From: Trifolium pratense
Taxonomy: Eukaryota; Streptophyta; Magnoliopsida; Fabales; Fabaceae
Direction: 5' to 3'
NCBI RefSeq assembly: GCF_020283565.1
Contig: NC_060059.1
Span: 10,547,501 to 10,611,500 of the forward strand
DNA: 64,000 bases
Shown: in pieces, positions 12,609 to 60,725 of the stretch
How the letters are laid out: each line of letters starts with the position of its first letter
Position numbering within the stretch: the stretch's first letter is position 1
The notes under the pieces: generated by a model
The model's input: the letters and a program-made list of their open reading frames with translations, nothing else
What the model was told of the DNA's origin: nothing
Databases searched by the model: none
Program-made: the position numbers and the translations under genes

Positions 12609-12617
12609 TAATTGCTA
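12609..12617 (-). promoter_or_regulatory. Leaky-stop context UAG-CAA-UUA
   Basis: The gag-pol stop reads TAG CAA TTA on the minus strand. This fits the CAR-YYA consensus for UAG readthrough known from tobamoviruses and reported for SIRE1. The following frame stays open for about 197 codons. Element B has the equivalent TAG CAG TTA. Confidence 0.75.
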
Positions 12618-15600: not shown

Positions 15601-16601
15601 CTGACAGTTAGTCCTTTCTTCGTTCTTTTCTGATATGTTGGACATTCAGGTCTGATGTGACCATATCCCTCGCATTCATGACATTGAATATTCTTGTTTA
15701 AGCTTGACTTTTCATCACTCTTAGGTTTTCCTTGATTCACAATGCTGCGCATAGTGCCTGGAGCATCATTCTTAGAATTTGGTCTGGGTCTTTTGTCCAT
15801 TTGTTTTAGAACTTTGTTGAACTGTTTTCCCAACAACTCCATAGCTTCAGAGATACTTTCATTAGATTCTTCATCCTCCTCCAGTTCTTCTTCATTATTT
15901 TTAGATGAGAAGGCAATGCTCTTATTTTTCTTTTCACTTCTTCCATTTGCAGCACTTTCATAAGTTTGGAGTGATCCAACCAGTTCATCCAGTTTCATCT
16001 GAGATATGTTTTTGGCTTCTTCCATAGCTGTGACTTTCATATCAAATTTCTTTGGAAGAGATCTGAGCATTTTTCTTACTAACTTTTCTTCGGGAATTTT
16101 CTCCCCCAAAGAATCAAATTGATTATCATAATCTAGAATAGTCATATGAAAATCTTGGATTGTTTCCTCATCCTTCATACGTAAATTTTCAAACTGAGTA
16201 GTAAGGATCTGTAATTTAGACATCTTTACCTGAGGAGTACCTTCATGAACAGTTTCAAGAATCTTCCAAGCTTCCTTTGCTGAGACACATTTTTTGATCA
16301 GCTTGAAGATGTGTTTGTCTACCCCATTGTATAATGCATATAATGCTTTTGAGTTTCCCAAAGCAAGCTCATCTTCTTCTTTAGACCAGTCCTCCTCAGC
16401 TTTTAGTTCAAGTGTTGGCTTTCCATCTTTGTCCATGACCACAGGGGGGTCCCATCCTTTCAGAACAGCTTTCCAAGTTTTGTTATCCATAGATTTTAGG
16501 AAAGCAATCATGCGTGATTTCCAATAATCATAGTTGGAGACACCAACGAGAAGCGGTGGTCTGCTTACAAGCCCTCCTTCTTTGTCCATGTTGCCAGACA
16601 T
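12615..16601 (-). CDS. Element A gag-protease-integrase-RNase H polyprotein with RT deleted in frame
   Basis: 1328 residues, uninterrupted. Visible in order: a copia-type gag (UBN2-like, about residues 20-220), a first zinc knuckle CHECEGYGHIRPEC (about 305), coiled-coil-rich middle, a second knuckle CHYCGRKGHIRPFC (about 536), protease active site DSGCSRHMTG (about 615), GAG-pre-integrase LWHQKLGHLNL (about 742), and integrase with catalytic D (HMDLM), D (RSDHGKEF) and E (VVERKNR). The frame then runs through GTKWVYKNK, the start of RT, straight into EGYCDVDWAG, the start of RNase H, and ends GKLGICLSEEL. The whole RT catalytic core including the YVDD box is absent. Start chosen at the ATG 53 bp from the 5' LTR edge. 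Confidence 0.92.
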   Translation of the reverse strand: MSGNMDKEGGLVSRPPLLVGVSNYDYWKSRMIAFLKSMDNKTWKAVLKGWDPPVVMDKDGKPTLELKAEEDWSKEEDELALGNSKALYALYNGVDKHIFKLIKKCVSAKEAWKILETVHEGTPQVKMSKLQILTTQFENLRMKDEETIQDFHMTILDYDNQFDSLGEKIPEEKLVRKMLRSLPKKFDMKVTAMEEAKNISQMKLDELVGSLQTYESAANGRSEKKNKSIAFSSKNNEEELEEDEESNESISEAMELLGKQFNKVLKQMDKRPRPNSKNDAPGTMRSIVNQGKPKSDEKSSLNKNIQCHECEGYGHIRPECPTYQKRTKKGLTVSWSDDDDSEDDTASVTAKHISVLTGTITSDTESCDGEVTYEELADSYKELCLKSGEICRVIEKQKVTINQLKAEKFENISKMDELQKKVNYLSSNLDESKEVIEKLNADIWRLRKFSDMLYKDDDHLDKLHKADGQLEEILEKNVLKPKHIGLSYENVNKHKGYSSDLTYMHPKETHKQNMPQQMLQHHKQHPLSKNKRKHHSWICHYCGRKGHIRPFCYKLFGYPNRHHQPKLVSTTASTQQEWKPKGKNVKTSDGTQLEKKITALVAHTSLRASSREDWYFDSGCSRHMTGIGKFLVDLKSYSTSFVTCGNGTKGEIVGIGELNSNSLPKLSNVLLVKGLTANLISISQLCDQGMKVNFTKSECLVTNDEGEILMRGVRSKDNCYLWVPQEEANVSTCLITKEDEIKLWHQKLGHLNLRSMKKAIPEEAIKGLPNLKIEEGSICGECQIGKQTKKPHPKLQHLTTTRVLELLHMDLMEPMQTESLGGKRYAYVVVNDFSRYTWINFIGKKSETFDVFKDLCILLQREKNNVVLRIRSDHGKEFENSRFSDFCASEGIIHEFSSLITPQQNGVVERKNRIIQESARVMLHAKKLSHGFWAEAMNTACHIHNRVTLRSGTTSTLYELWKGRKPTVKYFHVFGSKCYILSDREPRTKMDPKSDEGIFLGYSTNSRAYRVYNYITKTMMESINVVIDGISSEVVKDDAEDATASIQGSIDSETIEEFKNDTEITTPEPIFATSKKGSSIRTQKNHPTDLIIGNPNHGITTRRTLDLVPNVCFVSKFEPRNVMEALTDEVWINAMQEELNQFKKNEVWDLVPRPENTNVIGTKWVYKNKSMLEGYCDVDWAGCADDRKGTSGACFFLGNNLISWFSKKQNCVSLSTAEAEYIAAGSSCSKLLWMKQMLLEYNVVQDAMALYCDNLSAINISKNPIQHCRTKHIDIRHHFIRDLVEEGIITLEHIATEEQLADIFTKALDAVQFEKLRGKLGICLSEEL

Positions 16602-21516: not shown

Positions 21517-24500
21517 ATGGACAAGGAAGGAGGAACGGTTTCTAAACCACCACTGCTAACTGGGCCTGAGAACTATGACTACTGGAAAGCTAAGATGATG
21601 GTGTTTCTTAAATCCATTGATAGCAGAACATGGAAAGCTGTAGAAAATGGATGGGAACCCCCTATGGTCATTGATAAGGATGGAAAGCTAACAGGTGAAA
21701 TCAAGCCTAATAAAGACTATTCCAAAGACGAGGATGACCTAGCTCTGGGAAATTCAAAAGCCTTGAATGCCATATTCAATGGGGTGGACATCAACATGTT
21801 CAGACTTGTTAAACGATGCACTGTAGCCAAACAGGCGTGGGAAATACTCAGGAAAGCACATGAAGGAACCAACAAGGTAAAGCTGTCCAAACTTCAGATG
21901 CTTCGCACAAATTTTGAAAATCTGAGTATGAAGGAAGAAGAGACTATTCATGATTTTCACATGAATATTTTAGAATTTGCAAATTCATTTGATGCCTTGG
22001 GAGAACCCATATCAGATGAAAAACTGGTGAGCAAAATTCTCAGATCTCTACCTAAGAGGTTTGACATGAAAGTAACAGCAATAGAAGAATCTCAGGATCT
22101 GGCCAACATTCAAGTGGATGAACTAATAGGCTCACTTCAAACCTATGAGATGAGCATAAACCAAAGAAAAGAGAAGAAAAACAAAAGTTTGGCTTTTACT
22201 TCTAATACTACAGAAGATGATGAGATAGATATGGAGAGTGATGAAAGTTTATCTGAAGCCATGGTGTTACTTGGTAGACAGTTCAATCGTATCATGAAGA
22301 GGATGGATAAAAGAAATAAATTTAATGGTCCAAACACCAAATCTGACTTCAACAATAAGTTCAATGGTCCAAGCACCAAATCTGACTCCAACAAACCTGT
22401 ATCTACTCAAAGGAGGACCAGAAGTGATGACAAAGGTACTTCATCTAGAGGAGTTCAGTGTCATGAGTGCGAAGGATTTGGCCATATCAAATCTGAATGT
22501 CCTACTTTTCTGAAGAAGAAGAAGAGTCTTGCTGTTACTTGGTCAGATGAGGATGACTCAGAAGAAGATGAAGGTGAATCTGCTAAACTTGTCAATGCAT
22601 TGACAGGTGTCTATGAATCTGATGCTGAATCATGCGATGAAACATCATATGAAGAACTGCTGGCTACCTATAAGGACTTATTCATCAGGAGCAATGAATT
22701 CTGCAAAGCCTTGGAAAAACAAAAGGAGACAAATTGTCAACTTCAGGCCGAGAAGAATGAATGTCTGGATATAATTAAGACTCTCAACAAAGAGATTGAA
22801 AAGCTGAATGAAGACTTGGAGCATGCTAGAAAACAAGTTAGAGTTTTTGCATCAGGAGAAGAAAAGTTTCAAGCCATGCTGCTAAAACAAAGTGCTGGTA
22901 AGAAACCTATTGGCTTTGATTACGAGATAGTGGATCAAGAAATGGGTTACAACAAAGCTACAATCACTACCCCCATTGATAAAACTTTTCCTGTTAGTGG
23001 TGGGTTACTACCTCCTCACCCTCCCACACATCAGGGAACTGACACATGGTTAAAACCCAAGCAGCATGTCCAGACTAACTCGATGCCTCAACACCCGCCT
23101 CACCATCAATACAACAGGTCAAGATCTAGGACTAAAAGAAGGAATTGGAGGTGTCATTATTGTGGTAGGAAAGGGCACATTAGACCTTATTGCTACAAAC
23201 TGTACGGCTATCCACAGAATTCAAGGCCACTTGAACCCAAATCTGAGAACGTGAATGTCAAGAAAGAATGGAAGAAGAAGGAAGATGGTGTAAGCTTGAT
23301 AGCTCATACATCACTGCGGGCATCATCTAGACAAGATTGGTATTTTGACAGTGGATGTTCAAGACACATGACTGGAATGGAAGGATGTCTTGCCAACTTA
23401 AAATCCTATGCCACAAGTTATGTAACCTTTGGTGATGGAGCTAAGGGAGAGATAAAAGGAATTGGGAATCTAATCAACAATGGATTGCCAAATCTAGATA
23501 ATGTTCTATTGGTGAAAGGTCTTACAACTAATCTAATCAGCATTAGCCAGTTGTGTGATCAAGGCATGAAAGTAAACTTCACAAAGTCAGAATGTCTTGT
23601 TACAAATGAAGAAGGAAGACTCTTGATGAAGGGTGTGATGTCAAAGGACAACTGCTACTTATGGGTCTCTGAAGAAGAAAACCACTTGTCCACTTGTCTC
23701 TTAAGCAAAGAGGATAAAGTGAAGCTATGGCATCAAAAAATGGGTCACTTACATCTGAGAGGTTTGAAAAAGGTCATAGCAGAAGAAACAATCAAGGGAA
23801 ATCCAAAGCTCAAGATTGAGGAAGGAACTATATGTGGTGAGTGCCAAATTGGCAAGCAAACCATGGTGGCACATCCGAGGCTCCAACATTCGGTTACATC
23901 TAGAGCACTTGAACTATTACACATAGATCTGATGGCACCTATGCAGACTGAAAATCTTGGTGGTAAAAGGTATGTTTTTGCTTTGGAAGATGATTTTTCT
24001 AGATTCACTTGGATAGATTTCCTTAGAGAAAAATCAGACAGCTTTGAAACTTTTAGAAACTTATGCTTACAACTTCAAAGAGAAAAGGAGGTTGTTATTG
24101 TAAGAATAAGAAGTGATCGTGGAAAAGAATTTGAGAATGCAAAATTCTTTGATTCCTGTGCATCAGAAGGCATTTTTCTTGGATACTCCACAAACAGCAG
24201 AGCTTACAGAGTTTATAACTCTAGAACTAAAGTTACCGTGGAATTAATGAATGTGGTAGTTGATGATGCATCATCAACCAAAACAGCAGATGATGAATCA
24301 TCCATTCAACAGTCATATGATATTGTATTTGATGAAGTTTCAGGTTCTAACAATGAATCTGCTGATCCTAAATCAGAACTTGCCTGTGTCAACAAAGTCC
24401 CATTTATCAGGGATTTAGTTGAAGAAAATATTGTGAAGCTTGATCATGTTGCTATTGGATGCATATTCAGTAAAGCATTGGATGTTGTTGAGTTTGAAAG

Positions 24501-24543
24501 GCTAAGGGGCAAATTAGGAATTTGCCTGCATAAGGAATTGTAG
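21517..24543 (+). CDS. Element B gag-protease-truncated integrase polyprotein
   Basis: 1008 residues without a stop. Gag (about residues 20-220) is followed by zinc knuckle CHECEGFGHIKSEC (about 315), a charged coiled-coil region, a second knuckle CHYCGRKGHIRPYC (about 546), protease DSGCSRHMTG (about 612), GAG-pre-integrase LWHQKMGHLHL (about 740), and integrase with HIDLM and IRSDRGKEF. At about residue 884 the frame jumps from DSCASEG to IFLGYSTNSRAYRVYN, which in element A lies 106 codons further on, so the catalytic Glu is lost. A second deletion removes RT and nearly all RNase H; only the tail FIRDLVEE...GKLGICLHKEL remains. The deletions preserve the frame. Sequence is closely related to element A but clearly a different family. 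Confidence 0.93.
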   Translation: MDKEGGTVSKPPLLTGPENYDYWKAKMMVFLKSIDSRTWKAVENGWEPPMVIDKDGKLTGEIKPNKDYSKDEDDLALGNSKALNAIFNGVDINMFRLVKRCTVAKQAWEILRKAHEGTNKVKLSKLQMLRTNFENLSMKEEETIHDFHMNILEFANSFDALGEPISDEKLVSKILRSLPKRFDMKVTAIEESQDLANIQVDELIGSLQTYEMSINQRKEKKNKSLAFTSNTTEDDEIDMESDESLSEAMVLLGRQFNRIMKRMDKRNKFNGPNTKSDFNNKFNGPSTKSDSNKPVSTQRRTRSDDKGTSSRGVQCHECEGFGHIKSECPTFLKKKKSLAVTWSDEDDSEEDEGESAKLVNALTGVYESDAESCDETSYEELLATYKDLFIRSNEFCKALEKQKETNCQLQAEKNECLDIIKTLNKEIEKLNEDLEHARKQVRVFASGEEKFQAMLLKQSAGKKPIGFDYEIVDQEMGYNKATITTPIDKTFPVSGGLLPPHPPTHQGTDTWLKPKQHVQTNSMPQHPPHHQYNRSRSRTKRRNWRCHYCGRKGHIRPYCYKLYGYPQNSRPLEPKSENVNVKKEWKKKEDGVSLIAHTSLRASSRQDWYFDSGCSRHMTGMEGCLANLKSYATSYVTFGDGAKGEIKGIGNLINNGLPNLDNVLLVKGLTTNLISISQLCDQGMKVNFTKSECLVTNEEGRLLMKGVMSKDNCYLWVSEEENHLSTCLLSKEDKVKLWHQKMGHLHLRGLKKVIAEETIKGNPKLKIEEGTICGECQIGKQTMVAHPRLQHSVTSRALELLHIDLMAPMQTENLGGKRYVFALEDDFSRFTWIDFLREKSDSFETFRNLCLQLQREKEVVIVRIRSDRGKEFENAKFFDSCASEGIFLGYSTNSRAYRVYNSRTKVTVELMNVVVDDASSTKTADDESSIQQSYDIVFDEVSGSNNESADPKSELACVNKVPFIRDLVEENIVKLDHVAIGCIFSKALDVVEFERLRGKLGICLHKEL

Positions 24544-27793: not shown

Positions 27794-28421
27794 AAATAGA
27801 TAATTATGAGTTAGTTTACAAAATTGTCCTTCATTAATGGTATGAAAAAGATAAATTATGAGAGTATTAATTAGTTAATGGTATAATAGAAAAAATAGCA
27901 TTAAATGCTTATTTTTTAAACGTTATTTTAAGTAGCTTATGAGCTTATAATTTATCATTTTTTTCTTCTAATTTTAGGGTCCTTTTGGCCAGACTTTTTT
28001 AGGTCTTATAAGCTATCTGAAATTTAAAAGTAAAAATAATAACTTTCTAGAAAAAAAGCTAAAGTTGTTTGGTGGTTGTTGTTTTTTTAGCTTCAAAGCT
28101 ATTTTTAAGCTAAAAATTGTTGGTAAAATATATTTTTAAAAACTTAATTATTTTTTTTTGACAATCAAGCGTATAAATAAATAAATATTTTAAAAACAAT
28201 AGATAAGTATGAATTTTCTACATTGAAAAAGAAAATTGCTTTTTATAATTAAGAGCTTTATTAAAAAAGTGTTTGGCCCAACTTCTCATTTTAAAGAGAA
28301 TAAAAAGCTAAAAAAAGCCAGGCCAATCGAGTTCTTACTCCTATCATCTTCACATACCTTTGGAGCTATTACTTTTTTATACACTCAAGAGAAATAACGT
28401 CAGACTGGTTTGGTAAGACTA
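27794..28421. other. Upstream region of the first DUF594 gene
   Basis: AT-rich DNA without genes. At about 27977 and 28270 there are inverted GGTCCTTTTGGCCAGAC-like and GTTTGGCCCAACT ends around a T/A-rich interior, a possible decayed MITE. Element B's right end lies about 630 bp from the start codon, so most of the original upstream region has been displaced. Confidence 0.5.
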
Positions 28422-30521
28422 ATGGAGATTCACATATTGGAGCTTCGTACTTTGGTTTTGGTTAGTCTTTTCTTGCAAACTACGCTAATCGTTTTTGGCG
28501 ACAAAAGGAAGTACATAACTAATGAACTGCTAAAATTCTTCATATGGTTGAACTATTTGTCAGCTAATTGGATTGCCACATTTATGTTGGGAATTCTTTA
28601 CGTAGACTTCAAAAATCCTGAGGTTGACCCCAACTTCTTAATTATCGCTATATGGGCACCATTTCTTCTTGTGCATCTTGGTGGTCCTGACACAATCACT
28701 GCCTACTCCCTCGAGGACAATGAGCTCTGGCTTCGACATTTGTTTGACTTACTCAGTCAGCTAGTAGTTGTGGTTTATGTTATTTACCAGTCATGGAACG
28801 GAAGCTCTCTTAATTATGTCACCATTCTCGTTGTTGTGGCAGGAATAATTAAATATTGTGAGAGGACTTGGTCGTTGCGGTCTGCAAGCAGAGATGAATT
28901 CAGAGAATCAATTCTCCCTCCTCCAGACGCAGGACCAAATTATGCTAAATTCATGGACAATTACATTGCTAAAGAAGATGAAGGATATCATGTTACCATG
29001 GATACATTTATTGATATTACTACTCCAACAGCATCGGATCATACTTCTCAAGGGCAAATGCCAAATCCAAATATTCCAGATGGTGGAGCTTTACGTGATG
29101 GATTCAAATTCTACAACATTCCTGAGTGCCTCGTTGCGGATCTTATCTTTAGTTTCCAAGATCACAAAAGCAGCCAAGATTTCTTTCGAACCAAAGGTTG
29201 TCAACATGCTTTCAACGTGATTGCAATTGAGCTGGGATTGATGTATGATATGTTGTACACAAAGTCAGTGCTAACATACTCCAAATTTGGCATCTTCCTC
29301 AAATCTGTGAGCATTCTCTGTACACTCTCTGCATTGATTAGTTTTTCTTTTCTGAAACCCAAACCCATAACTTATGACCACATTATCACCTTTGTGCTTT
29401 TTGGTGGGGCTATTCTTTTAGAGATATATGCAATCCTTGTTGTACTTTCTTCAAGTAGGGCAATGTTTTGGTTCAGCAAGCATAATAATTGGGGAGCTAA
29501 TTTTCTCTACAAATGCATCTCATGGTGTCAATGTTTTTCACACACTGTCACATGGTCTAATCGTATGTCACAGTTCAACCTCATTAGATTTTGCTTGAAA
29601 GATGAGCCAATCAAATGTATCAAAATCCAGAAATTCCTTCACATCTATAAATACTTTGAGAAATATTACTATAAAAAAACAAAACAAGTCTCTGAGGAAT
29701 TAAAAGAACTCATTTTTAACGAACTTAAGAATAAGTCTAGGGAAGCCACAAATATAGAAGAATGCAAAAGATTATGCGCTTGCAAGGGCGATTGGGTTCT
29801 TGAACAATGTAAGTTTCATATTCATAAAGAACAGAACGATCGTAATCATGATAAAAACAACTGTCATATCTGTGACATTAACCACAGCATTAAGGAGGTT
29901 GAGTTTGATCAGAGCATTCTGCTTTGGCATATTGCTACAGATCTTTGTTATTATTCAGAATATTCAGATTCAGATGATGAGCCTCTAATCTTAAGTCCTG
30001 CTGCTCTCCAAAGTCGTGAAAAAAGCCAATTGTTGTCGGATCATATGTTAAATCTTCTTGTTATATGTCCTTTTTTGTTGCCCAATGGAATAGGACAGAT
30101 AAGATTTGAAGACACATGCGCGGAGGTGGGTGAAATTTTGGAAGAGAGAAAATACATAAAGGAAAGAAGGGAAGTTTGCAAGATTATACTCAGAGTGAAT
30201 ACAAAAATTCCACCATCAAAGGTTAAAGGTGATAGAAGCAAATCTGTGCTATTTGATGCATGTAGGCTTGCCAAATCACTACAGTCTTTAGAAACGAAGG
30301 AGAACTGGTCCAAAGAAAAGAAATGGAAAATGATAAGTAATATTTGGGTGGAGATGTTGTGTCATGCAGCAAGCCAATGTCGAGGACTCAATCATGCTAA
30401 GCAACTTAGCCAGGGTGGTGAGTTGCTTACCCATGTCTGGCTTTTGATGGCTCACTTAGGTATAACCGAACAATTTCAAATTTCTAAAGGTCATGTAAGG
30501 GCAATGTTGAAGCTCTCATAA
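28422..30521 (+). CDS. DUF4220/DUF594 membrane protein 1
   Basis: A single-exon gene of about 699 residues. The start ATG at 28422 was chosen because an in-frame TAA lies at 28395-28397. The N-terminal half is DUF4220: several hydrophobic helices and the family signature APFLLVHLGGPDTITAYSLE (residues about 82-101), followed by ERTWSLRSAS and ESILPPPDAGPNY. A second membrane cluster lies at about 290-345. The C-terminus is the DUF594 block: ILLWHIATDLCY, LLVICPFLLPNGIG, and HVWLLMAHLGI near the end. These proteins are plant-specific, of unknown function, and occur in clusters. It is a close paralogue of 37550-39826 and converges on the NLR gene. No lesion was seen; it is probably intact. Confidence 0.93.
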   Translation: MEIHILELRTLVLVSLFLQTTLIVFGDKRKYITNELLKFFIWLNYLSANWIATFMLGILYVDFKNPEVDPNFLIIAIWAPFLLVHLGGPDTITAYSLEDNELWLRHLFDLLSQLVVVVYVIYQSWNGSSLNYVTILVVVAGIIKYCERTWSLRSASRDEFRESILPPPDAGPNYAKFMDNYIAKEDEGYHVTMDTFIDITTPTASDHTSQGQMPNPNIPDGGALRDGFKFYNIPECLVADLIFSFQDHKSSQDFFRTKGCQHAFNVIAIELGLMYDMLYTKSVLTYSKFGIFLKSVSILCTLSALISFSFLKPKPITYDHIITFVLFGGAILLEIYAILVVLSSSRAMFWFSKHNNWGANFLYKCISWCQCFSHTVTWSNRMSQFNLIRFCLKDEPIKCIKIQKFLHIYKYFEKYYYKKTKQVSEELKELIFNELKNKSREATNIEECKRLCACKGDWVLEQCKFHIHKEQNDRNHDKNNCHICDINHSIKEVEFDQSILLWHIATDLCYYSEYSDSDDEPLILSPAALQSREKSQLLSDHMLNLLVICPFLLPNGIGQIRFEDTCAEVGEILEERKYIKERREVCKIILRVNTKIPPSKVKGDRSKSVLFDACRLAKSLQSLETKENWSKEKKWKMISNIWVEMLCHAASQCRGLNHAKQLSQGGELLTHVWLLMAHLGITEQFQISKGHVRAMLKLS

Positions 30522-32145: not shown

Positions 32146-35100
32146 CTACTGAAAATTAGTTTGGACGACTTGACAATTGGGTGGGATGTTATGCACCTCA
32201 ACAATTATATCCATAGGCATGTTTGTTAACTTCAACTCAAGCAAGGTATTGACATGCTTTAGTCCATCAGGAAGCAATATTAGGCGCGGACACGATCTGA
32301 TTTCCAGTTGTCTGAGGCAAGGGAGCGCTCCTGGTTCTAAAGTCCATTCCTCTAATTGCTCCAGCACCCAAAGCTTTAATAATTGAAGCCGAGGAAAGCT
32401 TTGAGATTCGCAAACCATAGTTGTTCCCATGTATGACTCTGCAAGTAAACACAGTGTCCGAAGGTTTGGAAAATCTTTCAAAAGTTTCATGGGGTCATCT
32501 TGTAGTTTCGAATGTGATAGGGTAAGATCAATGAGGCTCAGTGGAAATTGGGAAAGAGGAAGAGATGAACTGCTCAAGCTTCCTAGCAAATACATGTCAG
32601 TGAGATTCACATTTTTTTCGAAGGACTTCAAGTGTAAAATCCATGGTTGGCCTTCTTCATCTCTAGATTTTAGTCTCAATGATTGAAGGTACTCTAATGT
32701 AGTAATCCAGTCAGCCACGGCCTCAAGTTGAGCTATCATTGCCTCTTGGTTTAGTGACATTGATTGGCACGCTAATCCCAATTTTGTGATATTGACCAAT
32801 CTGTCCAAGCCATCCTTCACTGGACTCTCCTCATCTACAAACAGTCCCCACAATGTTTGGAGGTCAGAGAGAGAATTACCTTTTGGTTGAGGTGGAAATT
32901 TTGTGCGGTAAGTCTCACTCAAGAACAAGTGTCTGAGTTCCATCTTCCAGATTGAGGTAGGTAGAGTATGTATGTAAGTATGTTTGAGATCAAGTGTCTG
33001 TAGCTTCAACAACTTGCTTATAGATGATGGAAGTGACTCTAAGTAGGTCCATCTCAAGCCAAGATACCTTAGCCGTGAAAGTCTTGCTATACGATTAGGC
33101 AAATTAGGCTTGTAAACACGCTCAAGATCAAGCACCCGAAGGAGTAAGAAGCAATCACTTGAAATACATCCCTTGAGAAAGTTACCTACTTGTTGCCCAG
33201 GTTTACTCCCCTCTTGAGTATCAAAGGAGATAAAGGAGAGAACGTCCTTGTAGTAGGTTGGAAGGGAAGTTGGATCAGTAATGTCACCATGAATATGATC
33301 GTTCCAGATATCATTTTTATCAAGATGATCTGCAACCCGGCGAATAATGGACATTTTTGGGTCTGCATTGGAATCCATGGCAGATCGGTGGCCTTGTAGA
33401 AATCTAGACTCATTAGCCTTTGTCAACCAGAGTTGCCGCAAAGCACTAGGGAGACGACATGTTTTCACCTTTCCGTTGCGCTTTCTCTTGGCAACTTGGA
33501 CCATGTTCTGATCTATCAACTCTGTCAAGTACTTTTCTGCAACTAGCTCCAGGGGCACTTCGTCATCTTCTGTCCGATGAACCAGATTCTCGGCAACCCA
33601 CAAAACAACCAACCTTCTGACAGGGATCGCAAATTCAGCAGGGAATTGCAAAAAGTAAAATAGACATCTTCTTAGATAAGAAGGTAAGTTTGTATTAATT
33701 GTGTCCAGCGTTTCAGACCAACTTTGTATTTGATCTTCACTGAATTGTTGCCCTCCCAACATGCTTAACCACTCCTCGTGCATAACATTTCTATGTGAAA
33801 GCAAATCACTCATTTTCAATATTTGTGATGGCAGACCCCCACATTTCATCACAATTTCTTTTTCAACCTTGAGAAGTTCTTTTTCTGACTCGGGTGGAAT
33901 GTTTGCCTTAAAATGTCTTGTGAACAACCTCCAACTAGTTTCATCATCTAATAACTGTAGTGGGTGAACAAAGACTGTACTTGTTGCATGTTGGGCTACA
34001 TTTGCATTGCGAGTGGTAAAAAGAACTCTGCTTCCCGTTGACATGTCGGGTATGACCCGGTTCAAGGTATCCAAGTATACTTGAGAGGTTTCTTTTATGC
34101 CATCAACAACTACAAGGTACTTTGCACGCGCCAAGGTTTCAAGTATGTAATCAGTGGACAAGATTTCTCCTTCTTCTACAGCAATTTGCTTGGCGGCTTC
34201 CTTGCCAATTTCTGCAATCAACTGGTTTGTCGTACAATCTGAAGGAAGTGACACCCATAGGCGACGCTGAAAATGAGCTACAACAGTGTTGTCTTCAAAT
34301 ATCAACTTGGCTAGTGTTGTCTTGCCTGTACCTCCAATTCCAACAATCCAAGTAATACAGCGATGTTTCTCGTCCGACAGCAACTCGGCCATTAGAACTT
34401 GTGTGTCATCATCAAATCCAACCACACTTGACTCCCTGGCAATGAGAGACGGTTGCATCCTTGCACGTAATATTTGAACCTTGGTTACAACTCGGCTTTG
34501 AATTTGCACCAAACCATATGCTTTTCTTCTCCTATAAGCATCTTCAATTTTGTTTCTGATACCATCTATCTTCTTATTAACAATCTGCCGGGTCCGGTAC
34601 TTAAAAATGTAGATGAGAATGGGCTTATGCTTCAATTTTGCATCATATTTGATAATGATGGATTGAGCTTCAAGGGAAATACCTTTCAGTTGTTCCACCC
34701 AGATTTTGGATCTTCCATCTAGTTCTCCCATCTCTTGTGCATCCAAAAGCAGTGCATCCATCAATTCCTTTTCACCTCTGATTGATTGGACCTTCTCTTT
34801 GAGCCCTGTGACAGGCCGATACGAGAAGTTGGCAGCTGCTGCTGGTGTAGCACCAGAATTTTCATCGTGTTCAACAATGATTTCATTCTCAATATCGCTT
34901 TCTTGTACGCCCAATAAAGGTCCAAGCTCTTGTTGTGTTGTTTGAATATTTGCAATGCCATAAATGGCCTTCCTATCTGATATATCAAGAATTTCTTTCA
35001 ACAAAAAGTTGATATCCTTGGCAAACTTAATTCTGCTCAAACAACCACCCTTACCTTTTGGATATGCATCAATAAGAGACTGGCCATTTTGAGACACGAC

Positions 35101-36810
35101 TCTCAGTTGATCCACCCACACTCTCTGTCTTTTATTTAGGCCTTCTGCACTTTCGGTCGTATCACTCAAAAACGCACGCAGTAGAGCTAAATATATTTGC
35201 GTACACTTCAAATTATTGTCCATAGACCTCCGCAAATTCACAGTCCACACAATAACTTCAACAAGTGGAGAACTCAAGATGATGATAAACGTTGTCAGGA
35301 CAGGGCGAGATTCCAGGACAGGGTGAAACACCAACAGGATCAAAATCGATGAAAAAAACAAGAAGAGCAGAAACCGTCTTATTAGTTGCCTTCTCTTCCA
35401 TTTGTTCTTCTTTTCCTTCTTCTTCTTCTTTTTCTTCAGACTCCACACAATAACATTAATAAGTGAATAACTCAAGATGAAAAGGAAAGTTGCCAGGCCA
35501 GGCTGAAACTGAAACAGGATGAAAATCGGTAAATAAATTACAATGACGCGCCAAAACCGTCTTATTATTTCTCTTCCCTTCCATTTCATCTTCTTCTTCT
35601 TCAACCTCAACTCAATAACTTTAATAAGTGAATAACCCAAGATGAAAAGGAATGTTGCGAGGACAGGCTGAAACTGAAACAGGAGGAAACTCGGTAAATA
35701 AATCACAGGGTAACAGAAGCGCAGATGCCATCTTCTTTGCCATTCCTTCACTTTCTTAATCTTCTTCAGTCTGGATTTGGATATACCTTTTGTTGTTCTT
35801 CCTTGTTCTCCATCAAACATGAAAAAGTGTAAGATTATTATAAACCAGATGCACTCTTTTTGCAAGTGGAAAAAAGAAATAAAAGCATAAATAATAAGTA
35901 ATTGGATGTGTGCAATTATCAAGCTCTCTTGTGCCAAGTCTGGGACGGGTGTTGTTTTTTTGAATCCCACTCCCATGTCTAATTGTGCCCCAACTCCGTA
36001 AGTCAAACTTCTATCAACTGCATCTCCGATACGAGTCCTAATATACTTCATTTGCTTCATAAATTTATTTTCAGAAGCATAATCATCTGAAAGATAAAGT
36101 ACTGTTTTAAGCCAACCCATTTTAGACTGTCTTTCCTTGGCAAGAATGAAATTACACCCAACAGTTTCAGTATAATTGCAAAGTTCCTTCACCTCTTCCA
36201 ACCATACATTTTCTCTTTCACTTCTTGGTGAAATCAAATTAATATTTTGTAGTTTTCCAAGACCATCTTTTACTTGTTCAACTATCTCCACCACCTCATC
36301 ATCGGTACTTAAACATTGACTCAGAATGTGATCAAGCTTCTCCATAGCTAGTGTAGTGGCGGTGGTGATGGTGGACGATGAAGATGTTTCTCCTTCTGCA
36401 GCTGTTTCAACTGAGACACTGACAATATTTGATATTCCAATCTGAGAGATGTCTCTCATCCTTTGGCGGATCTTCTCCAGCTCTTTCCCAACCTTGTGTT
36501 TGTCTATCCAATACATAACTCCACTCCTCCTCCTCTTCACCGATTTTATCAGGAACGTTTCTATCACATCATCTGCATCACGGGCAATTTCCTTTAACTT
36601 CTCTTCCCATTCATTCAAATCTTGTTTTTGTTCACCGTACCCGTGCTGCCCGACCTGTTCCAACATTTCTTGCATTGACCTCAGCTCTCTTTCAATCCAT
36701 GCTACCTGCCTAACTGTCCCGCTGCCCAACACTGCGTACTCTTCAATCAGGATTTTGGATAGTTTGTTTGCCAAGCGTAATACCCCAAATACGATTCCAA
36801 CATCAGCCAT
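32146..36810 (-). CDS. CC-NB-LRR protein with repeated CC-like modules and three membrane-hairpin repeats
   Basis: About 1554 residues from MADVGIVFGVL; an in-frame ATG at 36840 would add ten. Residues 1-130 are an Rx-type CC domain with DADDVIETF in the EDVID position. Three further partial copies of the same pattern follow, each with (V/I)W(L/V)xx(V/L)(K/R) and later a helix ending in YG: VWLEEVKELC, VWVDQLRVVS, IWVEQLKGIS. Between the first and second of these lie three tandem repeats (about 360-525) of a hydrophobic hairpin around QFQPxLATFLFIL, joined by Lys/Arg-rich linkers. The NB-ARC has P-loop GIGGTGKTT (about 822), kinase-2 YLVVVDGIKE, RNBS-B GSRVLFTTRN and GLPS. The MHD position reads LPS. 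LRRs fill about 1225-1550. It resembles legume RPP13/RPP8-like CNLs in NB and LRR. No intron was evident. Confidence 0.88.
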   Translation of the reverse strand: MADVGIVFGVLRLANKLSKILIEEYAVLGSGTVRQVAWIERELRSMQEMLEQVGQHGYGEQKQDLNEWEEKLKEIARDADDVIETFLIKSVKRRRSGVMYWIDKHKVGKELEKIRQRMRDISQIGISNIVSVSVETAAEGETSSSSTITTATTLAMEKLDHILSQCLSTDDEVVEIVEQVKDGLGKLQNINLISPRSERENVWLEEVKELCNYTETVGCNFILAKERQSKMGWLKTVLYLSDDYASENKFMKQMKYIRTRIGDAVDRSLTYGVGAQLDMGVGFKKTTPVPDLAQESLIIAHIQLLIIYAFISFFHLQKECIWFIIILHFFMFDGEQGRTTKGISKSRLKKIKKVKEWQRRWHLRFCYPVIYLPSFLLFQFQPVLATFLFILGYSLIKVIELRLKKKKMKWKGREIIRRFWRVIVIYLPIFILFQFQPGLATFLFILSYSLINVIVWSLKKKKKKKEKKNKWKRRQLIRRFLLFLFFSSILILLVFHPVLESRPVLTTFIIILSSPLVEVIVWTVNLRRSMDNNLKCTQIYLALLRAFLSDTTESAEGLNKRQRVWVDQLRVVSQNGQSLIDAYPKGKGGCLSRIKFAKDINFLLKEILDISDRKAIYGIANIQTTQQELGPLLGVQESDIENEIIVEHDENSGATPAAAANFSYRPVTGLKEKVQSIRGEKELMDALLLDAQEMGELDGRSKIWVEQLKGISLEAQSIIIKYDAKLKHKPILIYIFKYRTRQIVNKKIDGIRNKIEDAYRRRKAYGLVQIQSRVVTKVQILRARMQPSLIARESSVVGFDDDTQVLMAELLSDEKHRCITWIVGIGGTGKTTLAKLIFEDNTVVAHFQRRLWVSLPSDCTTNQLIAEIGKEAAKQIAVEEGEILSTDYILETLARAKYLVVVDGIKETSQVYLDTLNRVIPDMSTGSRVLFTTRNANVAQHATSTVFVHPLQLLDDETSWRLFTRHFKANIPPESEKELLKVEKEIVMKCGGLPSQILKMSDLLSHRNVMHEEWLSMLGGQQFSEDQIQSWSETLDTINTNLPSYLRRCLFYFLQFPAEFAIPVRRLVVLWVAENLVHRTEDDEVPLELVAEKYLTELIDQNMVQVAKRKRNGKVKTCRLPSALRQLWLTKANESRFLQGHRSAMDSNADPKMSIIRRVADHLDKNDIWNDHIHGDITDPTSLPTYYKDVLSFISFDTQEGSKPGQQVGNFLKGCISSDCFLLLRVLDLERVYKPNLPNRIARLSRLRYLGLRWTYLESLPSSISKLLKLQTLDLKHTYIHTLPTSIWKMELRHLFLSETYRTKFPPQPKGNSLSDLQTLWGLFVDEESPVKDGLDRLVNITKLGLACQSMSLNQEAMIAQLEAVADWITTLEYLQSLRLKSRDEEGQPWILHLKSFEKNVNLTDMYLLGSLSSSSLPLSQFPLSLIDLTLSHSKLQDDPMKLLKDFPNLRTLCLLAESYMGTTMVCESQSFPRLQLLKLWVLEQLEEWTLEPGALPCLRQLEIRSCPRLILLPDGLKHVNTLLELKLTNMPMDIIVEVHNIPPNCQVVQTNFQ
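35240..35720 (-). repeat. Tandem coding repeats for membrane hairpins in the NLR
   Basis: Three related DNA units begin near 35622, 35461 and 35262 (spacing about 161 and 199 bp). Each contains a plus-strand motif like AAGTGAATAACTCAAGATGA. They encode the three hydrophobic hairpins of the NLR N-terminal half. The third unit is the most diverged. Confidence 0.85.
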
Positions 36811-37549: not shown

Positions 37550-39826
37550 ATGTTACTCGCTGGTAAGACGGATAATTGTTTCGGTATTTATTTATTCAAT
37601 TCAATAGTGGTCTTACTTTCCTTTCTAAAAAGGCTTAGCAAGCAATTGACATATATATGTTTTTTTTCAGTTGTTGCCAGTTTGATATATTCAAGAGAAA
37701 CATCAGATAATCAGACTACTCCGAGTCTGGCAAAAGTGTGGAATGTATTGGAACTACGGATTTTGGTTGCTGTTAGTCTCTTCTTACAAATGGTACTCAT
37801 CTTTTTAGGTAACCGAAGGAAGTATATAGTTGATAAAAGGCTACAATTGTTGATATGGTTCACCTATCTGTCAGCCGATTGGATTGCTACCGTTGCTCTA
37901 GGAATTCTTTCTAAAGACACTAAAGATCATAAGAAAGACACCAACTTTGCGATTATGGCCATATGGGCACCATTTCTTCTTGTGCATCTTGGTGGCCCCG
38001 ACACAATCACTGCCTACTCCCTTGAGGACAACCAACTATGGCCACGACATATGCTAGAATTACTCTATCAGTTAGCAGTTGCAGTTTATGTTGTTTACCG
38101 GTCATGGAACACCGATCCCCTTAAGTATGTCACTGTTCCTATTGTCATGGCAGGAATAATCAAATATGGCGAGAGGACTTGGTCGTTACGATCCGGAAGC
38201 AACGATGGATTTAGAGAATCAATTCTCCCTCCTCCAGACCCAGGACCAAACTATGCTAAATTCATGGATGATTACACTGCTAAAAAAGATGAAGGTTATC
38301 ATGTTACCTTAGACGAAATTAATGAAACTACTCCCTTAGTGTTGGATCATAATTCTCAAGGGGAAACCGGAATACCAAATGCCAATATTCCAGATGCTCA
38401 AGCTTTACGTGATGGATTCAAATACTACAACATTCCTGAGTGCCTATTTGCAGATCTCATCTTTAGTTTTCAAGACCACAAAAGCAGTCAATTTTTCTTT
38501 CACAGTTCTAATTGGAAAGATGCTTTTAAAGCAATAGAGGTTGAGCTAGGATTAATATATGATATGCTATATACAAAGGCAGTGGTAACATATTCCTACC
38601 GCGGCATCTTGCTCAAATCTGTGAGCTTTTTCTGTACGCTCTTTGCATTCATCGCCTTTTCTTTTCTGATATTTAAACAAAGTGTAGATAATAAACTCGA
38701 TTTTAAAGGACACAAACACTGGAATTATGATATGATTATCACTTTTGTGCTTTTCATTGGGGCTATTCTTCTTGAGATATATGCGGTCATTGTTTTACTT
38801 TCTTCAAGTTGGGTAATGAATTGGCTGAGAAAGCATAAGAATCGGAGAGTGGATCTTCTCTACAAGTTCATTTGGTTTTGTCAATTTTGTTTCAAACTTT
38901 CACACACTATCAGGTGGTCTAATCAAATGTCCCAATTCAACCTCATAAGTTTTTGCTTGAAAGATGAGCCAGTCAAATGTATCAAATTGCAGAAACTCTT
39001 TCACATATATATGTTTTTTGAGAAGTCTTACTATCAAAAAGCAAAACAAGTCTCTGAAGGATTGAAGGAACTCATTTTTGACCAGCTTAAGGAAAAGTCT
39101 GAGGAAGCGGAAGATATTCAAGCATGTAAAAAGTTATGTGCTCACAAGGGTGATCGAGTTCTTAACAAATGGAGTTGTGATAATGTTCCTGACATAAACC
39201 GGAGCATTAAGGAAGTAGAGTTTGACCAGAGCATTCTGCTTTGGCATATTGCTACAGACCTTTGTTATTCTTCAGAATATAATGAGCACCAAATCTTAAA
39301 TCGCGTTGCTCAACAAAGTCGTGAAGAAAGTCAATTGTTGTCGGATTATATGTTATATCTTCTTGTTATATGTCCTTTTTTGTTGCCCAATGGAATAGGA
39401 CAAATCAGATTTGAAGACACGTGTGCAGAGGTGGATGAACTTTTGAAAGAGAGAAAATACATAAAAGAAAGAAATCAAGCTTGCAAGATGATACTTAGAG
39501 TGAATACAGTTATTCCACCATCAGAGGTTAAAGGTGATAGAAGCAAATCTGTGTTGTTTGATGCGTGTAGGCTTGCCAAATCACTGCAATCTTTAGAAAC
39601 GGAGGAGCATTGGACCAAAGAAAGGAAATGGAAAATGATAAGTAATGTTTGGGTGGAGATGTTGTGTCATGCAGCAAGCCAATGTAGAGGACTCAATCAT
39701 GCTAAACAACTTAGCCAAGGTGGTGAGTTGCTTACCCATGTCTGGCTTTTGATGGCTCATTTAGGTATAACTGAACAATTTCAGATTTCTAAAGGTCATG
39801 TAAGGGCAAAGTTGAAGCTCTCATAA
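37550..39826 (+). CDS. DUF4220/DUF594 membrane protein 2
   Basis: 758 residues if read straight through. However, 37563-37670 has GT...AG ends, a TTTTTTTCAG acceptor and a length of 108 bp, a multiple of three. Splicing it gives about 722 residues starting MLLAVVASLIYSRETSD, and this seems likely since the retained version adds an odd hydrophobic insert. DUF4220 signatures APFLLVHLGGPDTITAYSLE and ERTWSLRSGS, membrane helices, ILLWHIATDLCY, LLVICPFLLPNGIG and the C-terminal HVWLLMAHLGI are all present. It is very similar to DUF594-1, with differences concentrated in linkers and around residues 500-530. It is head-to-head with the NLR gene. Function is unknown. Confidence 0.92.
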   Translation: MLLAGKTDNCFGIYLFNSIVVLLSFLKRLSKQLTYICFFSVVASLIYSRETSDNQTTPSLAKVWNVLELRILVAVSLFLQMVLIFLGNRRKYIVDKRLQLLIWFTYLSADWIATVALGILSKDTKDHKKDTNFAIMAIWAPFLLVHLGGPDTITAYSLEDNQLWPRHMLELLYQLAVAVYVVYRSWNTDPLKYVTVPIVMAGIIKYGERTWSLRSGSNDGFRESILPPPDPGPNYAKFMDDYTAKKDEGYHVTLDEINETTPLVLDHNSQGETGIPNANIPDAQALRDGFKYYNIPECLFADLIFSFQDHKSSQFFFHSSNWKDAFKAIEVELGLIYDMLYTKAVVTYSYRGILLKSVSFFCTLFAFIAFSFLIFKQSVDNKLDFKGHKHWNYDMIITFVLFIGAILLEIYAVIVLLSSSWVMNWLRKHKNRRVDLLYKFIWFCQFCFKLSHTIRWSNQMSQFNLISFCLKDEPVKCIKLQKLFHIYMFFEKSYYQKAKQVSEGLKELIFDQLKEKSEEAEDIQACKKLCAHKGDRVLNKWSCDNVPDINRSIKEVEFDQSILLWHIATDLCYSSEYNEHQILNRVAQQSREESQLLSDYMLYLLVICPFLLPNGIGQIRFEDTCAEVDELLKERKYIKERNQACKMILRVNTVIPPSEVKGDRSKSVLFDACRLAKSLQSLETEEHWTKERKWKMISNVWVEMLCHAASQCRGLNHAKQLSQGGELLTHVWLLMAHLGITEQFQISKGHVRAKLKLS

Positions 39827-43036: not shown

Positions 43037-45808
43037 CTACATGCCATACCTTGCTATTCCTTGAGGATTGACTTGGGATAAATGAATGCCTTGAGTTCTC
43101 ATGTTAGTATCACTCCAGATCAAAGGCGCTACCATCGAGTCCAAACCCAGCATCCTCTTTGTCCCACCACCAAGTGATCCTTCTAGAGTCAATCCTCTGA
43201 GACTTTCAAGCGATGTTAGGCAACTTTCAGCAGAACAGTTTGCACCTTGGGGCTGGAGAATATAGGGTACTTCTGAAACATGCATTCCATTTCCACCTAG
43301 CACGGTATTTGGTAGTTCTTGAAATTTTTGGATGTCTGTGTCTATAGTTGCATCACCAATAAACTGATCAGCCAACATCTTACACGCTCTCTCAAGCATG
43401 GCCATATATCTCCGTTCTGCATCTTGGCGAATTTGCAAGTGCTTCTCTGCCTGCAATAACATAATAGTAAGCATTACGGTACTTTTATCAGACATAAGAT
43501 AATCTATTGAGAAAACAGTAAATAAAACATATCTATTTCATACTATCATTTATTTCTCTCTGCAATAAATAGTTAAGGGTGTTATTGACAAAACAACAAT
43601 AAATGTTGAATTGAAATTTGAAAGTGACAAGTAAACAGGAACAAAAAAATTCTACAAAAACAACAAGTAATAAGTCCAAAAACGACATATATTGAGTATA
43701 ACCAAAACTATAATACATTGTGCAGCAAGAAAAGGAAATTTACCTCCACTAGTAAATGTAGCTTACTCTGCACTTCCATTTGTGCTCTTAATGCCTCCTT
43801 GACTTCATGGCCCCTATATATCAAATTGCAATTCTCAATTCAATCATTCATTACCATTCAAGAATAAATGGAGGAATAACAATGTCTAGTCTAAAGAAAC
43901 CACGAAATCCTTACTCATTTGCATCAGAAACTGGTAACTTTGGAGATGAGTTTTCAGTACTAGGGCTTTCAAGAAGATATGAACCTGATATTGCTTCCAA
44001 AATAATTCAATCAGTTAAGGCAGAGACATAGACCATAACCAACAGGTTAAAATTACAAACAGAATTGCTAATGTGTACTTTAGGCCTTGTACCACACAAA
44101 TGACGGTGTTTTCTTTAATCAAGAAACGAACATAGATTAAACAGCTAACCAAGCCTCATCCAAAAAAAGTGGGTGGCATATAATTCAAAGTGTAGAGAGA
44201 TTAACGTACCATCTTTGCATCCCTCGTCCGAATCTTTTCCAGCTTGTTTACCAAGCCTGTACTTCTACAATGCAGAAAATAATAGTGTAAAACGAAAAAA
44301 TCGTAAAATTTCTATTATACCAAATATTGTAACTGTTACAACGGGATATACGCAAATGAACCTGAAGATGACTCTTCAAATGATAGAGTGTCAAACCCTT
44401 GACGTTCATGCTCCTCATGATTGCTTTTGGTGTGGCTTCTGCAAATGATAATGTTAATAATATAATAATTGTGAGAAGACCGGTAGATGCAGTTACTTAG
44501 AAGAGTTTATCAAATGGAGGAATGCCCAATAATTAGAGTTATAGAGGCATATATTACTCGAATAATGGTATTAGTTATTTCTATAAGAATTCCTAGAAAA
44601 TATTCGCAATAAATCATAACTCCAACTACAAAGTGAGAAAAGAATCAATGCCATCAATATTTAAAGATTGAAGTTTATAGCACCATAAAAGGAATAAAAC
44701 ACCATCACAATCAAAAGGCAATGCTAAAACAACAAAAAGAAGCTCAACCAAGAAAAATGAGGACTGAACGACTACGATAATGATCTTCATACAAATTCTT
44801 AAGGCATACAAATTCTTAAGGGTGAGGTACCAAAGTGTAACTACTAAAATTTAGGGATTAAACTCACTCAAAAAAATTGGGGACCAAACTCACACATTAG
44901 CTACATAGAGACTAGAAGTGCAAAAATAAGGCATATTTTTGCTGACATGAATATTCAACGTGACCCAAAAAATGAGATGAGGGACCATAATGCCAAAAAA
45001 ATTGTGGGACTAAAACTTCATTTTTTTTAAAATAAGAGACCAAAAGTGCATTTAAACCCTAATTCAATTAAGAAATCACAGTAACATAAGTACATGAAAA
45101 GTATGGAATATGCATACACTAATAACATAAATACCTACAATGACAAGACAAACTCTACTAGTACAAGAATGATGCTAACCAACATACAAACATGAAATTG
45201 AAGACAAATAGAATAGTTTCACTAAAAGTTTAACACCTCATGTTGTACTACTGGATAGTGGTTTCTACAGCATTCACAATAGATTAACTTAACAACTAAT
45301 TAAGATGAAACAAAAATGATTACAAATTATGAAAATCAAGTCTAAACACCAATTTGCAACAAATTTCACAAAATTTACAACACACACAAAAAAGTACTTC
45401 CTTTCCTAACAATAGTTTCCAGCTGTTAAACAAAAACCATTCTTCCCTATCAATGTCAAACTAATAATGGCAAAATTAAATCAATAAATTAACCAAATGG
45501 GGTACATCAAAACCACATTTAATTCTACAAAATTAGCCAACACAACAAAAGTATCCAAATTTAGAAAAAAATAAAGTAATGTGATGATGTGAGAGAGAAA
45601 TTAATGACATACTGCTAGGACCACCAAGTTGAGTGACAGCATCAACAAAACGTTGGTGAAGGTCAGTAGTCCAACGAAGACGAGGTTTAGGATCAGAAGT
45701 AAGAACAAGACAAGGGTCAGTAAGGTGACTATGATGATGATTTGTTTCTTCTTGAACAACAACAACACTTCCTTCATGGTCATGAGGACGTAACAACCTA
45801 GAAAACAT
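43037..45808 (-). CDS. MYB-CC (PHR1-LIKE type) transcription factor, six exons
   Basis: Exons, in order on the minus strand: 45808-45613, 44438-44362, 44264-44210, 43984-43915, 43813-43744, 43450-43037. All introns are GT-AG and phases agree, giving about 293 residues. The GARP/MYB-like DNA-binding domain starts DPKPRLRWTTDLHQRFVDAV, continues across the first junction as GGPSKATPKAIMR and ends LTLYHLKSHLQKYRLGKQ. The coiled coil of the CC domain (EVKEALRAQMEVQSKLHLLV, then AEKHLQIRQDAERRYMAML) spans exons 5 and 6. Proteins of this family act in the nucleus, many in phosphate-starvation or vascular programmes; I cannot name the orthologue. Intron 1 (1.17 kb) carries a degenerate repeat at about 44815-45065. 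The upstream region is interrupted by hAT elements at 46169. Confidence 0.92.
44815..45065. repeat. MITE-like repeat in intron 1 of the MYB-CC gene
   Basis: Recurrent GGGGACCAAACTCA/GGGACTAAAAC motifs lie between weak inverted ends (TAAGGGTGAGGTACCAAAGT and, reversed, TTAGGGTTTAAATGCACTTT). This type is common in legume introns. Boundaries are approximate. Confidence 0.5.
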
Positions 45809-59896: not shown

Positions 59897-60725
59897 ATGA
59901 AGATCCCCCGACAAAACGACGAGTCTAATTGTAGAGTTGATCGCCATGATCCATATGCATTGGCGTTTCTTAAGGCAATACAAATTGTGTTTCAAGATAA
60001 GAATGAAAATCATAATTAGATTGTGAAACTCCTAAAAGATTTCAAGGCTAGAGATAATAATTCTTCAACAAAAAGAGTGAAAGAGTTGCTTAAAGGCCAT
60101 ACAAATTTAATTTTGTTATTCAACATTTTATTCATGCCAAACGAACATCGAATCATACTTCCATCTTATCAGCACAATTGTGACCTTCCCTGGGATGTGC
60201 TTGATATCATTTTCAAAAAACTAGATTTTGACGACTTCTTTCAGTTTGCCGGTGTGTGCAAGAATTGGAGGGCTTTTCATAAAATTCACTGGACAAATTT
60301 CTTGGCATCCCAAGAACCATTACTTCTTCAGCTTTCCTGGGATATTTATAAAAGATTATTTTCCTGGGACAAATTTCATGACGGGTGATTTTGAGCCTAT
60401 GAGAATAAATGTGTACAAGATAGACTTCTCAACCATGAATTATGTCAAACTAAAAACTTTGGGCGACATTGCTTTATTTCATGCTTGGAATGGTTTTAAG
60501 AGTAAATGTTATGCATTGAGCAACCCAAATAGGTGGGGATATGAGAGCAACTCGGCGTATGTACTCAATAACGGTTCTACAATATGTAGTGTGTATACAT
60601 GGGATGATAAAAAATTGCAAAAGTGCATTATGCTTCCAAGAACTCCTCATGGAATAATGTTACCCATGAGCGAATGGTGTTTTAGACATCTAAAATATGA
60701 GATAGATTATTCTCTAGTTGATTAA
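59897..60725 (+). pseudogene. Broken gene joining a SIN3-type PAH domain to an F-box and DUF295 fragment
   Basis: From the ATG at 59897 the frame reads a paired amphipathic helix domain: DPYALAFLKAIQIVFQDK, then (after an in-frame TAG at 60017-60019) VKLLKDFKARDNNSS, RVKELLKGHTNLILLFN and FMPNEHRIILP. The order and spacing match SIN3 PAH repeats. It continues in the same frame into an F-box, CDLPWDVLDIIFKKLDFDDF and FAGVCKNWRAFHK, then SQEPLLLQLS, as in DUF295/KIB F-box proteins. Near 60340-60385 the frame shifts and most of the beta-propeller is missing; the other frame resumes with VYKIDFSTMNYVKLKTLGD and ends near 60725. The stop, frameshift and internal loss make it a pseudogene unless it is heavily spliced. 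Confidence 0.75.

Follow-up and report, generated by a model that had tools for sequence, protein, structure and literature searches.

How a plant immune receptor comes to carry a block of hydrophobic segments in the midst of its coiled-coil (CC) units, and what such a block might do there, is the question raised by a gene in the stretch of Trifolium pratense DNA analysed here (64,000 nucleotides, contig NC_060059.1, positions 10,547,501 to 10,611,500; hereafter the window, from whose first letter all coordinates are counted). The gene is a single open frame on the minus strand, starting with an ATG at 36810 and running to 32146, i.e., well beyond the interval 35240..36810 that the original prediction had assigned to it. 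We read its product as a legume CC-type nucleotide-binding leucine-rich repeat receptor (CC-NLR) with a block of predicted hairpins between two pairs of CC units, which is likely anchored in a membrane before activation and in which the last helix of the block likely replaces the CC helix alpha1; we give this reading a probability of roughly 0.55. What the sequence itself shows is how the parts follow one another, that the frame is open and the linkers are basic, that tandem copies exist, that the layout is conserved in legumes and that the His of the MHD motif has been lost.

Domain order of the clover protein

By domain content the clover protein is a CC-NLR, with an NB-ARC domain, an Rx_N-type CC ahead of it and leucine-rich repeats (LRR) behind it. 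Pfam yields Rx_N and no RPW8 domain, so that the protein does not belong to the RPW8/CC-R NLRs. As NB-ARC begins at residue 807 (Pfam), 806 residues lie upstream of it, close to the approximately 820 announced earlier, and these are arranged in the order CC1, CC2, hydrophobic module (about residues 293-527), CC3 and CC4:

32146..36810, minus strand: whole coding sequence, 1554 codons plus stop, one open frame; public T. pratense protein P0002 is 100% identical along the entire 1554 amino acids
36427..36810, minus strand: CC1, residues 1-128, Rx_N, four predicted helices, DADDVIETF
35986..36375, minus strand: CC2, residues 146-275, predicted Rx-like four-helix bundle, without Pfam match
34951..35229, minus strand: CC3, residues 528-620, resembling Rx_N but lacking its own alpha1
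34486..34821, minus strand: CC4, residues 664-775, Rx_N without alpha1, adjoining NB-ARC
33724..34392, minus strand: NB-ARC, residues 807-1029, Pfam 122.2 bits, E 2.9e-35 (cut-off 23.5)
33436..33645, minus strand: winged helix, residues 1056-1125, Pfam WH_DRP 44.6 bits
32284..33165, minus strand: LRR, residues 1216-1509, Pfam LRR_14 109.9 bits (cut-off 40)

The proposal of one full Rx-type CC and three further, partial copies agrees with these predictions. Pfam Rx_N scores amount to 52.9 bits for CC1 and 38.4 bits for CC4 (cut-off 27.7), while CC3 stays below the cut-off with 23.7 bits and CC2 gives no Rx_N match at all, its assignment resting on profile comparison to CC1 (probability 88) and on the predicted fold. 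CC1 is predicted as a four-helix bundle that includes alpha1, and its DADDVIETF stands at what we take to be the EDVID position. In CC4, the Rx_N match starts at position 19 and three helices are predicted, indicating that alpha1 is missing; CC3 and CC4 are thus both modeled as CC units of three helices that lack their own alpha1.

The segment encoding the hairpins (735 nt) is open in its own frame, and the other five frames contain 6 to 21 stops each; in 20000 mononucleotide shuffles the hairpin frame never stayed open. A chance open frame is ruled out on these grounds, and hairpins forming a separate gene or a second exon are ruled out by the one frame that spans all parts.

Predicted membrane hairpins and their linkers

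In a Kyte-Doolittle scan over 19 residues with a threshold of 1.6, peaks reaching the threshold are confined to residues 302-513 of the clover protein; five more distant NLRs (P0026-P0030) show none, with a maximum of 1.54. Within this region three tandem DNA copies of 123 nt are found (35222-35344, 35420-35542 and 35585-35707), with starts 198 and 165 nt apart and identities to the middle copy of 60% (35222-35344) and 89% (35585-35707). The three hairpin repeats and their Lys/Arg-rich linkers had been recognized before, while a fourth, non-repeated hairpin preceding them had been overlooked:

35809..35934, minus strand: unrepeated hydrophobic hairpin, residues 293-334, peak 2.15, predicted helices 294-313 and 318-332
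35707..35808, minus strand: basic linker 1, residues 335-368, net charge +10
35602..35706, minus strand: tandem hairpin copy 1, residues 369-403, DNA repeat D1, peak 1.98
35551..35601, minus strand: basic linker 2, residues 404-420 (residues 401-421 net +10)
35431..35550, minus strand: tandem hairpin copy 2, residues 421-460, DNA repeat D1, 89% to copy 1 over 123 nt, peaks 1.90
35371..35430, minus strand: basic linker 3, residues 461-480 (residues 458-480 net +14)
35230..35370, minus strand: tandem hairpin copy 3, residues 481-527, the most diverged, 60% to the reference copy, peaks 2.57 and 2.11
35155..35304, minus strand: one uninterrupted helix predicted for residues 503-552, in which the last hydrophobic helix runs on into the first helix of CC3

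The hairpin turns of the clover protein are net neutral and the linkers carry +10, +10 and +14; linkers are net positive in 23 of 24 member rows of the family described below. According to the positive-inside rule, positively charged segments flanking membrane helices stay in the cytosol. Because the linkers are basic, this rule predicts that they lie on the cytosolic side, which CC1-CC2 and CC3 through the LRR, including NB-ARC, would share. The blocks are mostly of hairpin size and 25 of the 33 family members retain the module, and we regard anchoring of the receptor in a membrane before activation, as predicted here, as probable; the permanent anchoring envisaged in the original prediction is thus favoured.

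No Pfam family is found above its cut-off in residues 286-530, reticulon included; hits of the module to TctB, EcsB, PIG-F and others fell below the cut-offs and were taken as chance. Reticulon-type hairpins comprise about 35-50 residues, with both ends and the linker in the cytosol, and the likeness of the clover hairpins to them is one of shape only. Among the Foldseek rows, no match of the hairpins to a known membrane fold was conspicuous, which rules nothing out.

The transition from the last hydrophobic helix into CC3 is continuous over residues 503-552 in two predicted models (218-267 in the second model denote the same residues). The best Foldseek E-values for the two models are 0.63 and 0.30, and the rows with E 0.30 and 0.68 are chains of Sr35 with Foldseek probabilities of 0.99 and 0.96. 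As modeled, the fold of CC3 matches CC chains of the ZAR1, Sr35 and NRC resistosomes, and in one of the ten best structure rows the last hydrophobic helix overlies alpha1 of the activated ZAR1 resistosome. Homology of this helix to alpha1 of CC1 was tried with hhalign and not found. That the last membrane helix replaces alpha1 is, taken by itself, a tentative proposal at somewhat less than even odds.

Regarding the tandem copies, FQFQP stands in copy 1 as well as in copy 2 (35431-35706) of T. pratense, and in Trifolium repens the two share FQFHP; since the copies match within each species, gene conversion between them is suggested. The ratio of nonsynonymous to synonymous substitutions (dN/dS) is about 0.41 for copies 1 and 2, and 0.95 and 1.28 in comparison with copy 3, values that rest on 18-26 synonymous sites and are not decisive.

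Family distribution, conservation and switch motifs

Three protein searches yielded 33 distinct members, the clover protein included (P0001, P0003-P0025 and P0031-P0039). P0026-P0030 (321 bits or less) were set outside the family by our own cut, and P0025 was left out of the alignment that underlies the module, tree, linker and conservation counts. All members with a species name are legumes of the genera Trifolium, Vicia, Lathyrus, Cicer, Medicago, Sesbania, Abrus, Spatholobus, Glycine, Phaseolus, Sphenostylis and Flemingia, which are presumably all papilionoid. In the one search to which the cut was applied, no non-legume member was found above it among the scored candidates, i.e., those sharing most words, a procedure that missed the known members P0015, P0017, P0020 and P0023. 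Public names of the relatives include RPM1, RPP8-like, RPP13-like and RF9. Of 32 candidates scored when the assembly (413.6 Mb) was searched with CC2-CC4 as query, one was a full match, the window itself, and two were weak and partial. This query did not recover P0025, an incomplete T. pratense protein from another record in which two hairpins are seen by eye.

At least two hydropathy peaks between CC2 and CC3 are present in 25 of the 33 members, a single one in P0011 and none in seven. Three of these eight module-poor members look like shortened gene models (P0011, P0015, P0034): P0015 begins after the module, and P0034 from Glycine soja has a near-twin in G. max, P0032, that retains it. The module appears to have been lost in P0035-P0039. 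P0035 lies on a contig, and P0036-P0039 are public gene models in which an intron call could in principle have cut it out, but P0035, P0036 and P0037 share nearly the same short remnant. Outside the module, an extra peak occurs at residues 10-15, inside helix 1 of CC1, in seven of the 33 members, and P0006, P0008, P0010, P0017 and P0032 have a further peak elsewhere. By our reading the proteins from T. pratense and T. repens have four hairpins, as do P0004, P0005 and P0007; of two Vicia villosa genes, one encodes five and the other three, and the remaining 18 intact members have two, the second block being weak in some (P0010, P0018).

These counts were placed on a tree derived from CC3 to LRR without the module (quick search; the outgroup branch is long), on which four changes account for the 29 rows that carry a label. 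The rows with three to five hairpins fall into one clade (SH-like approximate likelihood ratio test, SH-aLRT, 100), which also contains two Lathyrus rows with two hairpins, while the module losses fall within another clade (SH-aLRT 97). Judged from the counts on this tree, two hairpins look ancestral, the rise to three to five by tandem copies looks like a later growth among clovers and vetches, and a clade of beans has apparently lost its hairpins. The suggested growth by tandem duplication is supported for the extra copies, beneath which an apparently ancestral two-hairpin module lies. Likewise, the expectation that orthologues keep the hairpin frame open is borne out by the relatives, although a sister clade without the module exists.

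Identities to the clover protein were determined for 12 members picked from the other 31 aligned. They reach 69-96% for the LRR, 71-94% for the winged helix, 49-84% for NB-ARC and 31-86% for CC1; in the 11 compared members that possess the module its identity is 12-70%, as opposed to 72-96% for the LRR of the same proteins. LRR and winged helix are consequently the best-conserved regions of the family and the hairpin module changes fastest. The LRR does not look like a surface that tracks effectors, and because it is among the best-conserved parts, it may recognize a conserved host partner. When 16 of the 18 members with two hairpins are compared, identity in the hydrophobic columns is 30%, yet 61% of substitutions stay hydrophobic, compared with 37% in CC3, an apparent constraint that is partly circular because the columns were picked by hydropathy.

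With regard to the canonical ADP/ATP switch, the P-loop is present, whereas the MHD motif and the full pair of acidic residues of kinase-2 are not:

34312..34341, minus strand: P-loop GIGGTGKTTL, residues 824-833, Lys conserved in all 31 rows that show it
34090..34119, minus strand: kinase-2 YLVVVDGIKE, residues 898-907, with Gly in place of the second Asp
33445..33453, minus strand: MHD position, Leu-Pro-Ser, residues 1120-1122, aligned to NRC1, NRC2 and Sr35

In the P-loop, Thr follows Lys in 28 of the 31 rows. In place of the second kinase-2 acid, 29 of 32 member rows have Gly or Cys; DD is kept only in P0033, and two Flemingia rows read VD. At the MHD site, the register of which was confirmed by alignment to NRC1, NRC2 and Sr35, His is absent from all 31 rows showing the site and Asp is retained in P0013 only. 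Since members without hairpins lack the His as well, its loss is not tied to the module.

Possible modes of action

The closest established systems are the MADA-type CC-NLRs (ZAR1, Sr35, NRC2/3/4), with which the clover protein shares the Rx-type CC, NB-ARC, winged helix and LRR; the part from CC4 to LRR aligns from residue 24 of NRC2 with an E-value of 1.9e-54. The clover protein differs from them in having four CC units instead of one and an internal polytopic membrane module, and in lacking alpha1 on the CC adjacent to NB-ARC as well as the MHD His; at this CC, the features of a ZAR1-type executor are absent. Ordinary MADA-type members are thought to insert alpha1 upon activation (PMC12856790, PMC9851556), and the former source calls alpha1 "presumably" the part entering the membrane and reports it as not resolved in Sr35. 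Helices inserted beforehand, if this is true, would bypass that step.

Other NLRs also direct themselves to membranes by their own sequence, flax L6 and M through an N-terminal signal anchor and RPS5 through acylation, as far as described in PMC3801107. These rely on a single N-terminal hydrophobic stretch or a lipid, in contrast to four internal hairpins between CC units, and with no peak of at least 1.6 before residue 302 the clover protein is not of the L6/M signal-anchor type. Barley Rph3 is likewise a predicted multi-helix membrane resistance protein, which the available account (PMC9061838) describes beside NLRs and not as one, whereas the clover helices belong to an NLR. NLRs with integrated domains share the possession of an extra module, which usually resembles a host target; the clover module resembles no Pfam family above cut-off, and the word "membrane" does not occur in the main text of a review of such domains (PMC9528084). 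CC-CC-NBS-LRR proteins are mentioned for ryegrass (PMC2694799), in the text available to us without the word "transmembrane", which is also absent from the main text of a survey of NLR architecture in nine Fabaceae including T. pratense (PMC11734081). The consulted parts of PMC11126693, PMC12415192, PMC12652450 and PMC11921622 describe nothing alike. The earlier statement that no NLR class with this layout has been described holds within the open-access PMC literature as far as covered, where we found no NLR that carries a polytopic membrane module in its interior.

In the mechanism we propose, paired hydrophobic segments and basic linkers would place CC1-CC2 and CC3 through LRR in the cytosol, and the last membrane helix is predicted to run into CC3 as one rod. 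The LRR may read a conserved host partner and not fast-changing effectors; a change in this partner would cause the NB-ARC domains to assemble into a ring, which via the CC3 rods would gather the already inserted membrane helices into a signalling or conducting cluster. The pore-like role envisaged in the original prediction is an inference, and conduction by the assembled helices is doubtful. We consider equally speculative, and rather unlikely, the far-reaching version of a permanent resistosome step, in which bilayer-resident helices rigidly coupled to an activated-like CC3 replace alpha1 and NB-ARC assembly needs only to bring hairpins that are already formed together as a channel, which clovers and vetches would adjust through extra hairpins.

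The hairpins might instead be a mere tether, with alpha1 of CC1 acting from the N-terminus after activation as in MADA-type CC-NLRs. The predicted four-helix CC1 with its alpha1, the hydropathy peak at residues 10-15 in seven members and the start of P0032, MADLAVSFIV, which comes near the MADA motif as quoted in PMC12856790, fit this, as does a clade doing without the module if the tether is dispensable; the clover N-terminus MADVGIVFGV resembles the motif by eye. However, nearly 700 residues, among them CC2 and the hairpins, separate the end of CC1 from NB-ARC, and the CC that does adjoin NB-ARC has no alpha1, so we judge this explanation improbable, if worth keeping in view. The same low standing is given to a membrane-held regulator without the usual ADP/ATP switch that holds back partner NLRs or serves them as a scaffold, for which NRCX, by other means, is a parallel. 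It draws on the general absence of the MHD His, on both kinase-2 acids being kept in only one of 32 rows, on a single full match in the assembly together with the conserved LRR, as would befit a conserved component, and on the precedent of NRCX, which is an NLR but not an executor of cell death (PMC9851556). Yet the P-loop Lys is retained throughout, NRCX itself has an intact MHD, and an altered MHD may instead mean autoactivity, which TYG in place of MHD may accompany in rice RGA4 (PMC4246468). RGA4 and NRCX resemble the clover protein in departing from the standard NLR switch or executor role; no membrane module is described for them in these sources, and the MHD change in the clover family is clade-wide.

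Less likely still is an integrated decoy, a hairpin module mimicking a membrane protein attacked by pathogens, the modification of which the NLR would sense. The module is indeed the fastest-changing part and its hairpin number varies, but it matches no Pfam family above cut-off and the constraint seen is on hydrophobicity and not on a conserved site. That the hairpin segment is missing from the mature protein, being spliced out or part of a decaying gene, is very improbable: gene models of G. soja (P0034) and Trifolium subterraneum (P0011) omit most of it, yet full-length proteins with the module are encoded in T. pratense, T. repens and contigs of 5-10 kb (P0004, P0005, P0007), the near-identical G. 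max protein keeps it, and the five alternative frames are full of stops.

Regarding the surroundings, two DUF4220/DUF594 genes in the same orientation as each other flank the NLR gene (28410-30521 and 37550-39826, plus strand). Two copia-type retroelement frames (gag, pre-integrase, integrase) lie at 12615-16601 (minus) and 21517-24543 (plus), and a PIF1-like helicase fragment at 8578-9288 (minus) possibly comes from a Helitron. Fragments at 43037-43495 (minus) and 60228-60725 (plus) show below-cut-off matches to the MYB-CC LHEQLE motif and the KIB1-4 beta-propeller, respectively.

How plant resistosomes act on membranes is unsettled, and a CC-NLR with a seemingly built-in membrane part offers a natural comparison, for which sister genes with 0, 2, 3, 4 or 5 hairpins constitute a ready-made series. 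If the preferred reading of a membrane-anchored receptor with its hairpin block between two CC pairs is correct, these legume proteins would represent a membrane-resident type of NLR hidden under database names such as RPM1, RPP8-like and RPP13-like.
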